Positions 20,676 through 38,991 of a DNA stretch of 45,557 bases are shown here, in pieces (the stretch's first letter is position 1; each line of letters starts with the position of its first letter). Origin of the DNA: a bacterium (GTDB lineage: Bacteria; Patescibacteriota; Minisyncoccia; Phycocordibacterales; CAIZLB01); NCBI GenBank assembly GCA_027490575.1, contig JAIXXV010000006.1, positions 1 through 45,557 on the forward strand. The letters are read 5' to 3'. A program made the translations under genes and the position numbers. Under the pieces are notes generated by a model that was not told the origin of the DNA, ran no database searches, and worked only from the letters and a program-made list of their open reading frames with translations.

Positions 20676-20765
20676 GGAGACGTGGGAGAGTGGTTTAATC
20701 TACCTCTTTGCTAAAGAGGCGTACCAGAAATGGTACCGAGGGTTCGAATCCCTCCGTCTCCGCCA
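20676..20765 (+). tRNA. tRNA-Ser (anticodon GCU)
   Basis: This class II cloverleaf has acceptor GGAGACG/CGTCTCC, anticodon stem CCTCT/AGAGG with loop TTGCTAA, a long variable arm (GTACC/GGTAC) and T arm GAGGG-TTCGAAT-CCCTC. It reads AGC/AGU. It is the only tRNA in the window whose gene encodes a complete CCA. TATATA just upstream could be its -10. It is followed directly by a hairpin array. Confidence 0.97.
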
Positions 20766-20961
20766 TGGCTGTGTAGGATATCTACGCAGTAGATATCTGA
20801 ACAGGCATCATGCGGGAGAATGTGTGGGATTGCAAACATCCCTGAATCAGCAGATTCACCTACTGGGTCCGTCTCCGCAAAACAAGGAACGCAGTGACTA
20901 TGTTTTGCGAGAGTGTAGTTTAAGGAGCTGATTTATCAGCGACTATAAACCCACCTCCGCA
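20766..20961 (+). repeat. Hairpin array A with tRNA 3'-end copies
   Basis: Two units follow the tRNA. The first has a perfect hairpin at 20777-20797 (GATATCTAC, GCA loop, GTAGATATC) and ends at 20867-20878 with GTCCGTCTCCGC, a copy of the local acceptor end. The second has the hairpin 20877-20908 (GCAAAACA/TGTTTTGC) with tip GA-AC-GCA-GT-GA, then a nested stem (GTTTA/TAAAC, GCTGA-TTTA-TCAGC), and ends CCTCCGCA at 20954-20961. Bases 20919-20965 are identical to 23160-23206. Confidence 0.85.
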
Positions 20962-21010
20962 TTGACAGTACGAGTCAGCTTTAGCTGGTAAGTGCTGGTA
21001 ACTTTTTTGT
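20962..21010 (+). terminator. Terminator-like hairpin closing array A
   Basis: The arms TTGACAGTAC/GTGCTGGTAA and CAGC-TTTA-GCTG fold around a GA-type internal loop and are followed by CTTTTTTG. It looks like an intrinsic terminator for a transcript that includes tRNA-Ser and array A. The same hairpin at 23015-23054 lacks the T run. Confidence 0.65.
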
Positions 21011-21124
21011 ATAAGGATCATATCTACCCTTCTTTTTTTATACTTATTTATTGCCATAATAAATTTGGTAAAATAGGAAATATAATCAAACAAAAGTTAT
21101 TAAGGTGATATACTTATTAATAAT

Positions 21125-21646
21125 ATGAAAAAAATATTTTTTATACTTAAAGTAGGAATCATTTCGGTTGTTCTATATTATCTGCTTCTCATTTTTATAA
21201 TCGGACCTTTTGTCATAAATGCTTTTTTATCACAAATTAATATAAATGAGACTGTTTTTACATATATTACCAGAGCAATATTTATATTGTTATTTGTAGC
21301 TGTTTGCACTGGGGTAGCATTTTTACTCAAAAAACAAACTTACGAAGTTGACTCTGTACACAGAGACAGTGACTTGCCTATCACACCTAAGCCATCTCCA
21401 GAAATAACTATGTGGGCTGTAGTTTTATCTATAGCCACGATTGTAGTTCCGCAATTACCCAGTGATGATTTGTCTCAAATGGTATATTTATTCACTCTAC
21501 CTTTATTAGTTATATGTTGGATAATTTTAAGCCTGCTTCGATTAAAATATAAAAACACCGCGAATGAGCACATCAGGACAGCAATGTATTTTCTGCTTAC
21601 AGCCTGGACTTTGATTATTTCTTTAATATACCAACAATTATTTTAA
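21125..21646 (+). CDS. Four-helix membrane protein, unknown
   Basis: The 173-aa protein has four hydrophobic segments (IFFILKVGIISVVLYYLLLI, YITRAIFILLFVAVCTGVAF, MWAVVLSIATIVVPQL, LFTLPLLVICWIILSLL plus a final YFLLTAWTLIISLIY). The loops carry no known motif. AAGGTGAT lies 15 bases upstream of the ATG, too far for a good Shine-Dalgarno. It is one of several small membrane genes located between the tRNA-linked arrays, which suggests accessory cargo. Confidence 0.7.
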   Translation: MKKIFFILKVGIISVVLYYLLLIFIIGPFVINAFLSQININETVFTYITRAIFILLFVAVCTGVAFLLKKQTYEVDSVHRDSDLPITPKPSPEITMWAVVLSIATIVVPQLPSDDLSQMVYLFTLPLLVICWIILSLLRLKYKNTANEHIRTAMYFLLTAWTLIISLIYQQLF

Positions 21647-21721
21647 TAAAACATTTTATAACTCCAATTATCTAAAGGCTCACCACGCTTTCCAACCCCA
21701 CCCCTTAAACTTAATTAACCC

Positions 21722-22204
21722 ATGGAAATAAAAGACAAAGAGTTGCATAGGATTGCTATCACTTGCATCATTTACAATGAAGCGCAAAAAGGTGACATAA
21801 AGTACTTACTAACAAAAAGAAGTCCTACAAAAAAAGTTCACCCTAACAGATGGACTGTTCCAGGAGGGGGTTTAAATGTTGATGACTATATAAACAAGCC
21901 AGTATCACACGGGGTTAATGGCTGGTATGGCTCAGTAGAAGATGCATTAATGCGAGAAGTAAAAGAAGAGGTTAATGTAGATATCGGTAAAGCCACTCAC
22001 CTGCTCAACCTAACTTTCATAAGACCTGATGGTGTCCCCGTTCTAGTGCTTAGCTATTTTGCTCCATATATTTCGGGAGAAGTAAAACTAGACGAAGATG
22101 CAGTTGAATATAGGTGGGTATCACTAGAGCAAGCCAAAGATATTGATTTAATAGACGGTATATATAGTGAATTAGAGATGGTGGATAAGTTGTTAAGCAA
22201 ATAA
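21722..22204 (+). CDS. Nudix hydrolase
   Basis: The 160-aa protein of the Nudix fold hydrolyses nucleoside diphosphate-linked compounds; its substrate cannot be told. It has HPNRWTVPGGGL before the box and the core helix ALMREVKEEVNVDI carrying the metal-binding REVxEE. About 18-20 residues (NVDDYINKPVSHGVNGWYG) are inserted between the GGG turn and the helix, and the first Glu of the consensus Gx5E is not aligned, so activity may differ from typical members. It lies between arrays A and B. Confidence 0.88.
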   Translation: MEIKDKELHRIAITCIIYNEAQKGDIKYLLTKRSPTKKVHPNRWTVPGGGLNVDDYINKPVSHGVNGWYGSVEDALMREVKEEVNVDIGKATHLLNLTFIRPDGVPVLVLSYFAPYISGEVKLDEDAVEYRWVSLEQAKDIDLIDGIYSELEMVDKLLSK

Positions 22205-22211
22205 TATATAT

Positions 22212-22219
22212 TGTATAAT
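22212..22219 (+). promoter_or_regulatory. Promoter of the DoxX-like gene
   Basis: TGTATAAT ends nine bases before the ATG at 22229, so the mRNA leader is at most a few bases. Confidence 0.5.
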
Positions 22220-22228
22220 TAACCCATC

Positions 22229-22627
22229 ATGAAAATAATAAACACGATAATAAAAATAATATTGAGCATAATACTAATCATGCCAGTATTTGGAGTTCTA
22301 GGAATATTCCCAGAACCAACAGCTGATATGTATAACAACATCGATGCTTATGCATTTATCAAAGTATTGATGGATAGTCAGTACATCATGATAATGATGT
22401 CAGTAGTATTTCTAATATCACTTGCCTGTCTATGGACAAAGAGAGTAGCACTTGCTTCCCTCTTGCTTCTACCAATTTCACTGAACATAGTAGGCTTCCA
22501 TGCTTTTATAGATGGAGGACTTCTTACAGGTGGAGCTGTTATGGGAAATGTTCTACTACTCATAAACATTTACCTACTATGGCAAAGTTGTGATCAGATC
22601 AAACCACTACTACAACCAAAAGCTTAG
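22229..22627 (+). CDS. DoxX-like small membrane protein
   Basis: The 132-aa protein has four membrane helices (IIKIILSIILIMPVFGVLGI, YIMIMMSVVFLISLACLW, VALASLLLLPISLNIVGFH, MGNVLLLINIYLLW). The pattern of an early Phe/Pro turn, LLPISLNIVGFHAFIDGG and a final helix ending YLLW resembles DoxX-type membrane proteins of unknown function. A TATAAT box directly before the start indicates a near-leaderless mRNA. Confidence 0.7.
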   Translation: MKIINTIIKIILSIILIMPVFGVLGIFPEPTADMYNNIDAYAFIKVLMDSQYIMIMMSVVFLISLACLWTKRVALASLLLLPISLNIVGFHAFIDGGLLTGGAVMGNVLLLINIYLLWQSCDQIKPLLQPKA

Positions 22628-22675
22628 TTTTCTGATTAATCTTATTTGGTAAATTAAAAGGTAAATTAAATAAAC

Positions 22676-22712
22676 TTCAAACCCTGCTCAGGCAACTCAG
22701 CAGGGTTTTGAA
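22676..22712 (+). terminator. Terminator-like hairpin after the DoxX-like gene
   Basis: TTCAAACCCTGCT pairs with AGCAGGGTTTTGAA with one bulged T. The trailing T run is short. It separates the DoxX-like gene from the tRNA-Ser(ACU) promoter, which overlaps its end. Confidence 0.6.
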
Positions 22713-22735
22713 ATTACCGACTTTTAATGTAGTAT
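22708..22735 (+). promoter_or_regulatory. Promoter of tRNA-Ser(ACU)
   Basis: TTGAAA (22708-22713) and TAGTAT (22730-22735) are 16 bp apart. The start would fall two or three bases before the mature tRNA 5' end at 22745. Confidence 0.55.
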
Positions 22736-22744
22736 ACCCGTATT

Positions 22745-22831
22745 GGAGAGATGGATGAGTGGCTTAAATCAACAGTTTACTAAACTGTCGACCCTTAATT
22801 GGGTCCGAGGGTTCGAATCCCTCTCTCTCCG
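22745..22831 (+). tRNA. tRNA-Ser with anticodon ACU
   Basis: A well-formed class II cloverleaf: acceptor GGAGAGA/TCTCTCC, D stem GAT/ATC with GG in the loop, anticodon stem ACAGT/ACTGT, variable arm GACCC/GGGTC, and T arm GAGGG-TTCGAAT-CCCTC. The anticodon loop is TTACTAA, giving A34-C35-U36. It shares its scaffold with the GCU tRNA-Ser 2 kb away, but the anticodon stem and variable arm differ by paired changes, as in a maintained gene rather than a decaying one. The gene is followed by CA, one C short of CCA. Bacteria normally read AGU with GCU, so this anticodon is unexpected. Confidence 0.85.
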
Positions 22832-22833
22832 CA

Positions 22834-23206
22834 TTAACAATATGAGCCAGCTTTAGCTGGTGAATATTGTTAACTAGTGGATATAGTAGGAAGCGTAGCT
22901 TCTGGGGATTCGAAAAGGTTCTTCCATATTTTCGAGAATTGAGCGTAGCGAAATTTAAGAAAATGGAAAACCTGTACTGATCCTGTAAGGATCGAATCCC
23001 TCTCTCTCTCCGCATTGACAGTACGAGCCAGCTTTAGCTGGTGAGTGCTGGCAACTTTAAGGTAGTGGGATCGTACCCATCCCTCTCTCTCCGCAGATTA
23101 ATGAGCGCAGCGAATATAATCTGCGAGAGTGTAGTTGAATCAGAAGATTCAACTACTGGTTTAAGGAGCTGATTTATCAGCGACTATAAACCCACCTCCG
23201 CATTGA
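22834..23206 (+). repeat. Hairpin array B with tRNA 3'-end copies
   Basis: Three units follow tRNA-Ser(ACU). B1 starts with a 10+5 bp hairpin (22834-22873), then a GAAGC-GTA-GCTTC hairpin, then a unit opened by GGGATTCGA (22905-22913) and closed by TCGAATCCC (22992-23000), ending with a 23-base T-arm/acceptor copy at 22992-23014. B2 is the hairpin 23015-23054, ending with CCCTCTCTCTCCGCA at 23081-23095. B3 is hairpin 23093-23124 (tip GA-GC-GCA-GC-GA), a perfect hairpin TAGTTGAATC-AGAA-GATTCAACTA, then a block identical to array A, ending at 23202. Confidence 0.85.
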
Positions 23207-23301
23207 GGCCTTAGTACCGGTATGGCCAGAGTATTTAAGATTGTAGAGAGACCAGATTACTCTTGCTACACAAACATTTAAAATTAAGTTAAAATTAACT
23301 T

Positions 23302-23598
23302 ATGCAAAAATACTCAAGATTCTCACTTTATAGTTTTATCATTCTCGCATCATCCTTTCTTTTGTTGTTTGTAAATCGAAGCGTCGTGAACTTGTCTATG
23401 TCTCCTACATACTCTGATATCTTCGGATATGCCATATTACCGATAGTCTCTCTCATACTTGCAGTAACATCTCTAAGAAAATCCAATTCAAAATCTATAA
23501 ATATTTTACTAATCATTCTTTCCATATTGCCAGTGCTTCTTTTTGTAGCAATTGCTCTTCTGGGCCATTGCGGATTCTATACAGGAAAGTGCAGATAG
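23302..23598 (+). CDS. Small three-helix membrane protein, unknown
   Basis: The 98-aa protein has hydrophobic segments SFIILASSFLLLFV, IFGYAILPIVSLILAVTSL and ILLIILSILPVLLFVAIALL, with a Cys-containing tail (HCGFYTGKCR). No family is recognised. An inverted repeat (TAAGTTAA-AA-TTAACTTA) sits directly in front of the ATG and could be an operator or affect initiation. It lies between arrays B and C. Confidence 0.65.
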   Translation: MQKYSRFSLYSFIILASSFLLLFVNRSVVNLSMSPTYSDIFGYAILPIVSLILAVTSLRKSNSKSINILLIILSILPVLLFVAIALLGHCGFYTGKCR

Positions 23599-23702
23599 TG
23601 AGAAGCTGACCACGACCCATATACTCGTTTCAATCCCTGAAATGGTACCAAAATATATCTACAAGGTCTCACCGCTCTAATACCTAACCCACCATGCCTG
23701 CG

Positions 23703-23902
23703 TAAAGATATTTTCACAAAGTGAAAATATTCCCGCCCGGTACGAGAAAGCGGCCGATGGAGATTCTATAGTTGATTCGAAAAGCTTTACCTTATTTTGA
23801 AGACCTGTGGTCTAATAAAATGGTAAAGGTATACTCAAGACATAAGCTTCGAATCCCTTTCTGTAGGGACCGAATCGTTCATCTTACAACATAAGATGAT
23901 TA
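23703..23902 (+). repeat. Degenerate hairpin cluster C
   Basis: Several stems follow one another: ATATTTTCAC/GTGAAAATAT; an outer GATTCGAA (23774-23781) pairing with TTCGAATC (23848-23855) around CTTTACC.../...GGTAAAG and AGACC-TGT-GGTCT; and CATCTTA/TAAGATG. The plan GATTCGAA-hairpin-TTCGAATCCC repeats that of unit B1 with different inner sequences, so this is probably an older member of the same family. No functional tRNA is seen here. Confidence 0.65.
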
Positions 23903-23917
23903 ATTATTTACATTCAC

Positions 23918-24367
23918 TCACTTTAGTTTGCTCTGACAACCCGTCTTTGCACTAGAGCTTAATAGAAGTTCACATGATTCAAAATCATTATTTTCTATCG
24001 CAAAGGAATAAACACATTTATCAAATTTATTCGGATCAGAAATTAATTTACAAAATGAAACTTTTTTCTTTTGCAAAGCGAAAATACTAATACAATCAGA
24101 GGTATAATCTACCCCCCTATGTCCCACTGTTTCTGCTGACTTAAATTTCAAGCACTCTGAAACATCTTGATTTGTGTCAATTAATTTTTGAGTTTGTTTT
24201 TTCATAACACTAGGGTCTTGAATAACTATATATCCCTGAATTGTATATATTTCCTCAAGAATATATGACTTAATTCCAAGATAAACAAATATATAAAGTA
24301 TTGGAAGCGAAAGGTAAACAAGAAAAGAAACAGCTAATATAGTAAAAAGTTTTATTATAATTTTCAT
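23918..24367 (-). CDS. Membrane-anchored Cys-repeat protein
   Basis: The protein has 149 aa from the ATG at 24367 (MKIIIKLFTILAVSF); the frame extends upstream but would run into the repeat D region. One N-terminal membrane helix is followed by an exported domain with regularly spaced Cys in units such as SDCISIFALQKKKVSFCKLI and DKCVYSFAIENNDFESCELL, the C-x3-A-x(n)-D-x3-C repeat seen in many uncharacterised CPR and archaeal surface proteins. Neighbouring cysteines probably form disulfides. Function is unknown. Confidence 0.7.
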   Translation of the reverse strand: MKIIIKLFTILAVSFLVYLSLPILYIFVYLGIKSYILEEIYTIQGYIVIQDPSVMKKQTQKLIDTNQDVSECLKFKSAETVGHRGVDYTSDCISIFALQKKKVSFCKLISDPNKFDKCVYSFAIENNDFESCELLLSSSAKTGCQSKLK

Positions 24368-24430
24368 TGATAACATAATATCACGCTTAACATAATGTGT
24401 AATATATAGGAACCATGTTATGGTAAGGGT

Positions 24431-24469
24431 GTACTGACCATGTAATGGTCGAATCCCTATCTCTCCGCA
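24431..24469 (+). repeat. tRNA-Ser 3'-end remnant with T-arm-like hairpin (D)
   Basis: GTACTGACCA-TGTAA-TGGTC leads into TCGAATCCCTATCTCTCCGC. The same plan occurs at 22974-23014, where the hairpin arms are GATCC/GGATC instead of GACCA/TGGTC with the TGTAA loop unchanged. The tail copies the T-loop 3' part and acceptor of tRNA-Ser. It could be an attachment-site remnant at the right end of the accessory region. Confidence 0.75.
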
Positions 24470-24503
24470 TTTAACACACTCAGTCTCAACCACCACCCAT
24501 CCA

Positions 24504-38902: not shown

Positions 38903-38917
38903 GATACCTAAAATCTG

Positions 38918-38991
38918 TGCGAGTACCTGGACTCGAACCAGGGACCACAGAGGTATAAGCTCTGCGCTCTAACCAACTGAGCTATACTCGC
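38918..38991 (-). tRNA. tRNA-Ile (anticodon UAU)
   Basis: This 74-nt cloverleaf has acceptor GCGAGTA/TACTCGC, D arm with GCTC/GAGC and GG in the loop, anticodon stem CAGAG/CTCTG with loop CTTATAC, and T arm CCTGG-TTCGAGT-CCAGG. The anticodon is therefore TAT, read as tRNA-Ile for AUA. Most bacteria read AUA with a CAU tRNA modified to lysidine by TilS, so a UAU gene is unusual. It is followed by CA rather than CCA. It lies downstream of ftsH in the same orientation. Confidence 0.93.

Follow-up and report, generated by a model that had tools for sequence, protein, structure and literature searches.

The tRNA-Ser(ACU) gene at positions 22745 to 22831 of the window (the whole stretch of 45,557 nucleotides that was analysed, part of a 772-kb draft genome of 42 contigs that is 93% complete) is probably, with odds that we put at about three in four, a functional serine tRNA that keeps an unmodified adenosine at the wobble position (A34), is charged by SerRS, and acts as a dedicated reader of AGU beside tRNA-Ser(GCU). 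We infer that in these cells the gene is transcribed and that its product is charged, left unmodified at A34, and confined to AGU in decoding. The gene and its surroundings comprise the following features:

20676..20762, + strand: partner tRNA-Ser(GCU), of the U32 type, with the loop TTGCTAA
22708..22735, + strand: weak match to a sigma-70-like promoter, TTGAAA-16-TAGTAT, 9/12 (shuffles average 0.7)
22745..22831, + strand: tRNA-Ser(ACU), a full cloverleaf with long variable arm and G73, CCA not encoded (ARAGORN, Rfam, alignment)
22817..23095, + strand: array of repeat copies of the tRNA-Ser(ACU) 3' end; other tRNAs of this genome are followed by comparable repeats
22846..22861, + strand: terminator-like hairpin directly downstream of tRNA-Ser(ACU) (shuffles average 0.2)

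ARAGORN places a tRNA-Ser(act) at 22745-22832, and the Rfam tRNA model matches 22745-22831 with 55.6 bits (E 2.1e-9), above the Rfam cut-off; the tRNA-Ser(gct) at 20676, behind which our gene starts by 2 kb, scores 56.1 bits. All stems are paired (acceptor GGAGAGA/TCTCTCC; anticodon ACAGT-TTACTAA-ACTGT; T arm GAGGG-TTCGAAT-CCCTC) and the encoded A34 is confirmed, so that the well-formed tRNA-Ser(ACU) described in the earlier note stands. Of the bacterial serine determinants listed in the consulted part of PMC9976931, where serine identity is given as anticodon-independent, the tRNA carries G73, G2-C71, R4-Y69 and G30-C40; C11-G24, one listed element among several, is replaced by A11-U24, and the window's own tRNA-Ser(GCU) likewise lacks it. 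In the four remaining genus genomes with ACU, the acceptor stem reads GGAGGCG/CGCCTCC. Together with the T arm, the window's acceptor stem resembles the tRNA-Ser(GGA) of relatives, unlike the ACU tRNAs of other genus members (L032-L035); the draft genome of the window yielded no tRNA-Ser(GGA), and gene conversion of these two parts is possible.

Far from being absent in all relatives, a prospect that the earlier note had raised, the gene is present in five of the six genus genomes (the one without it is 82% complete) and, by a loose sequence pattern, in 13 of 14 sampled genomes of the family and 82 of 397 genomes of the order, spread over 25 of its 90 families. The same pattern read backwards matched 7 order genomes, so a few of the 82 could be due to chance, though all listed loose-pattern matches of the order have a tRNA-like D arm. 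At the level of the phylum, a stricter pattern found the gene in 14 of 379 genomes. Since the distribution is patchy, with 315 of the 397 order genomes and 365 of the 379 phylum genomes negative by pattern, the tRNA is dispensable. A scan of named GTDB contigs yielded at least 118 stretches, and in 117 of 118 ARAGORN called a tRNA-Ser(act). The loci belong mostly to Patescibacteria (Nomura-, Taylor-, Zambryski-, Magasanik-, Kaiser- and Adlerbacteria, among others), some being labelled just "uncultured bacterium"; 13 were set aside, on the strength of a record title or a near-identical sequence, as other phyla (Planctomycetes, Flavobacteriales, Polynucleobacter, and others), leaving 104. Outside Patescibacteria the ACU tRNA-Ser is sporadic (L048, L068, L110, L054, L057, L062, L046, L123), and TadA is present in all eight of these; among the matches listed, none of the 13 loci has a tRNA-Ser(GCU) on the same stretch.

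Conservation extends to the fold. In 99 distinct ACU copies drawn from the matches listed (genus copies included, the 13 loci of other phyla left out), the positions of the acceptor, anticodon and T stems are each 98 to 100% paired, with many compensatory changes and, at many positions, several kinds of pair. The differences from tRNA-Ser(GCU), which the earlier note had recognised as paired changes, are kept with compensatory changes in independent genomes, far beyond chance. Conservation and covariation together rule out a pseudogene or an assembly error, in agreement with the earlier view that this is no obvious pseudogene. Among the matches listed, the nearest neighbour of 95 of 96 ACU copies is another ACU tRNA, and on a tRNA tree built from some 85 bases, and hence weakly resolved, the label switches between ACU and non-ACU just twice. 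Mean identity of the ACU tRNAs to Ser(UGA) is 0.664, slightly above that to GCU (0.607-0.638). A recent copy of the GCU gene with a single anticodon change is therefore ruled out, the ACU tRNAs forming a clade of their own that lies slightly nearer to Ser(UGA). From their spread across relatives, their covariation, and their resemblance to one another above all, the sequences indicate that tRNA-Ser(ACU) is an old, selected tRNA.

Whether A34 is edited decides much of what the tRNA can read. Were it converted to inosine, the tRNA would read AGU and AGC, and AGA by accident. The arginine tRNAs speak against the machinery for this: among the 36 Rfam tRNA matches of the window genome (93% complete; 35 typed by ARAGORN and the last, at 486-556, read by eye as CAT) there is no tRNA-Arg(ACG), the arginine anticodons being GCG, TCG, TCT and CCT, a set with which a report for the Candidate Phyla Radiation is in line in the part of PMC8629427 consulted. 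The TadA model NF008113 has no match in any of the six genus genomes, although at 93% completeness a missed gene is possible in the window genome, and the deaminase encoded there (a PF14437 match) is ComEB-like and was rejected as TadA. Nothing exceeded the model's cut-off in 197 order genomes either, but this cut-off is strict and was passed by just 5 of 14 control genomes, 12 of which match at any score. Weaker matches occur in ACU-bearing genomes, at 45 bits (G103), 23 (G183) and 19.5 (G012), and two of them (G007, 70 bits; G158, 76 bits) hold TadA-like deaminases under the curated cut-off, which counts in favour of editing, as does the presence of TadA in all eight non-Patescibacteria, whose best matches, by comparison, score 130 to 206 bits. 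The absence of TadA is thus well supported for the window genome and not for every ACU carrier. We also considered the rule that loss of TadA permits the gene, and it is ruled out as stated: all eight non-Patescibacteria checked carry both, so that the loss is not required. According to excerpts of PMC11066159, no inosine was seen in an ACU tRNA used as an orthogonal tRNA in E. coli, where TadA is present, and by the account in part of PMC3711424 the only target of bacterial TadA is tRNA-Arg(ACG). Finally, in the ORFs of the window arginine is encoded most often by AGA (250 of 462), for which reason inosine at position 34 would be costly. The inosine offered by the earlier note is accordingly very unlikely. 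On the TadA non-match in the genus and these two papers, as far as consulted, A34 is taken to be unmodified.

For the preferred reading, the dedicated AGU reader, the following course may be proposed. SerRS, whose recognition is independent of the anticodon, would charge tRNA-Ser(ACU), and the unmodified A34 would decode serine AGU by Watson-Crick pairing, while the accompanying tRNA-Ser(GCU) would cover AGC, and AGU by wobble; a conserved U32-A38 pair and the lack of inosine would keep A34 off the arginine codons AGA and AGG. According to the same excerpts of PMC11066159, the ACU tRNA in E. coli read AGU at 9.4%, with AGC and AGA below detection; AGG, read at 0.36%, is a counterpoint to an AGU-only reader. 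Codon usage, a check proposed by the earlier note, agrees: alongside the heavy use of AGA, the window's ORFs contain 201 AGU against 63 AGC codons. We further compared 20 ACU-bearing with 20 ACU-lacking order genomes, one 19.9-kb stretch each. The share AGU/(AGU+AGC) was 0.66 in the carriers versus 0.52 (p = 0.018, with statistics that ignore kinship), and the excess persisted once other NNU/NNC pairs were corrected for (t = 2.46, kinship likewise ignored); a control with Cys revealed no such rise in the carriers (t = 0.94). AGA use was not lower in carriers (0.27 vs 0.17 of Arg codons). The effect on AGU is modest and is supporting evidence only. Of the roles offered by the earlier note, the specialised AGU reader is the best supported.

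The partner tRNA adds a further line of evidence. Among the matches listed, a tRNA-Ser(GCU) also lies on 76 of the 104 Patescibacteria-type ACU loci, at less than 500 bp from the ACU gene in 55 of these 76 (median gap 142 bp, n = 76), the two genes being on opposite strands at 45 loci and on the same strand at 31. U32 is found in 119 of 123 ACU tRNAs listed. The GCU tRNA has U32 in 30 of 31 listed genomes that bear ACU, and C32 in 61 of 76 listed genomes without it (Fisher p = 3e-14 for the 107 genomes with listed GCU rows, which were read by eye, six genomes with ACU rows alone being left out). With one vote per family and state, again among the matches listed, U32:C32 is 18:1 with ACU versus 11:41 without (p = 2e-8). 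Where a listed family holds both states, the type of GCU tRNA changes along with the presence of ACU in three cases (f3, f41, f57), and U32 occurs throughout in two (f10, f59). Of the 77 GCU partners at listed ACU loci, from the named scan and from the genus, 69 carry U32. The U32 and C32 types of GCU tRNA differ in the D arm too. In a glycine tRNA, as described in the consulted part of PMC10853795, the change from C32 to U32 is detrimental to superwobbling and U32 is able to pair with A38; by analogy, we infer that U32 may keep both the ACU and the GCU tRNA strict. The association suggests a co-evolved two-tRNA system for AGU and AGC. More tentatively, and at less than even odds, some Patescibacteria may have split the AGY box between two tRNAs, an unedited ACU for AGU and a U32-type GCU, often adjacent, that is tuned to AGC, in replacement of an ancestral C32-type GCU that read both. 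If true, the pair would be a natural partition of a two-codon box into one tRNA per codon.

Roles other than reading AGU must be weighed against these data. The tRNA might act mainly outside decoding, for instance as a regulatory RNA or as the donor of serine with which the cell wall or lipids are modified; tRNA-Ser(GCU) already serves its box, and it occurs patchily, as would suit such a role, but the anticodon stem and loop are among its best-conserved parts, where a tRNA with no part in decoding could do without a fixed loop, and AGU use is higher where the tRNA occurs. We consider this unlikely, if the least so of the three alternatives, and for the regulatory tRNA of the earlier note no evidence was found. 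The gene might also have no function in its own right, being either what is left of an attachment site or cargo carried by the mobile array that follows it. The 3' ends of tRNAs are common integration sites, and copies of the tRNA-Ser(ACU) 3' end do follow the gene; against this, the same kind of repeat lies behind other tRNAs of the window genome, the array stretch matched just three of the six genus genomes, against five that have the tRNA, and covariation is strong across the whole tRNA. This last alternative is the most improbable of all.

The repeats themselves, in which 12 nt or more of a gene's own 3' end recur 137 to 190 nt downstream of it, occur behind 6 of the 32 distinct tRNA genes (Val GAC, Leu GAG, Tyr, Arg GCG, Arg CCT and Ser ACT; sites: window 22832-23095; L007, L019, L023, L024, L030); upstream copies were found for none of the 32. 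Ahead of the downstream copies comes a conserved stretch of about 90 nt, and the repeats have the look of a dispersed element that targets the 3' ends of tRNAs. The special link between tRNA-Ser(ACU) and the array that the earlier note envisaged is thus not supported, as similar repeats follow five other tRNAs (Val, Leu, Tyr and two for Arg).

Among known systems, the tRNA-Thr(AGU) of Mycoplasma capricolum (parts of PMC3711424 and PMC11066159) is among the closest, having a natural unedited wobble A, as we suppose for A34 here, in a reduced genome and beside a second isoacceptor. It differs in that its four-codon box makes misreading harmless, whereas the box of tRNA-Ser(ACU) is split between Ser and Arg, and it reads several ACN codons, whereas the ACU anticodon reads essentially AGU. 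The standard AGU/AGC reader, tRNA-Ser(GCU), shares with our tRNA the amino acid, class II structure, G73 and usually the neighbourhood, but has G34 instead of A34 and a mean identity of about 61% to the separate ACU clade. Bacterial tRNA-Arg(ICG) also has an encoded A34, which TadA edits to inosine; the window genome has neither tRNA-Arg(ACG) nor a recognisable TadA. The excerpts of PMC11066159 call unmodified wobble A extremely rare, and the natural cases they name are four-codon boxes of Mycoplasma or organelles. That A34 is possible in serine may follow from SerRS ignoring the anticodon, since several other NNY boxes are served by synthetases that recognise G34 (table in the consulted part of PMC9976931; the general conclusion is ours). 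An ACU family that is conserved in 25 families of a single order and belongs to a box divided between Ser and Arg would offer a natural way to test how A34 decodes and what stops it from misreading arginine codons, and would bear on the set-up of translation in tiny genomes once inosine is lost. Among open-access papers on tRNA-Ser ACU, A34 tRNAs, TadA, and Patescibacteria or CPR tRNAs, a set that excludes the A34 surveys of Rafels-Ybern cited in PMC11066159, no title or opening of an abstract reports such a family; tRNA databases may list the genes without comment.

Two further observations concern the surroundings. The region 20764-24470, which separates the two Ser tRNAs and continues beyond the second, holds a NUDIX gene (21722-22204), two small ORFs (21125-21646 and 22229-22627) without a Pfam match, and tRNA-3'-end repeats in its intergenic stretches, and by its make-up it is a cassette-like variable region. 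A tRNA-Ile(TAT) is located at 38917-38991 of the window, and in several relatives (L055, L064, L108) this tRNA also lies close to tRNA-Ser(ACU).
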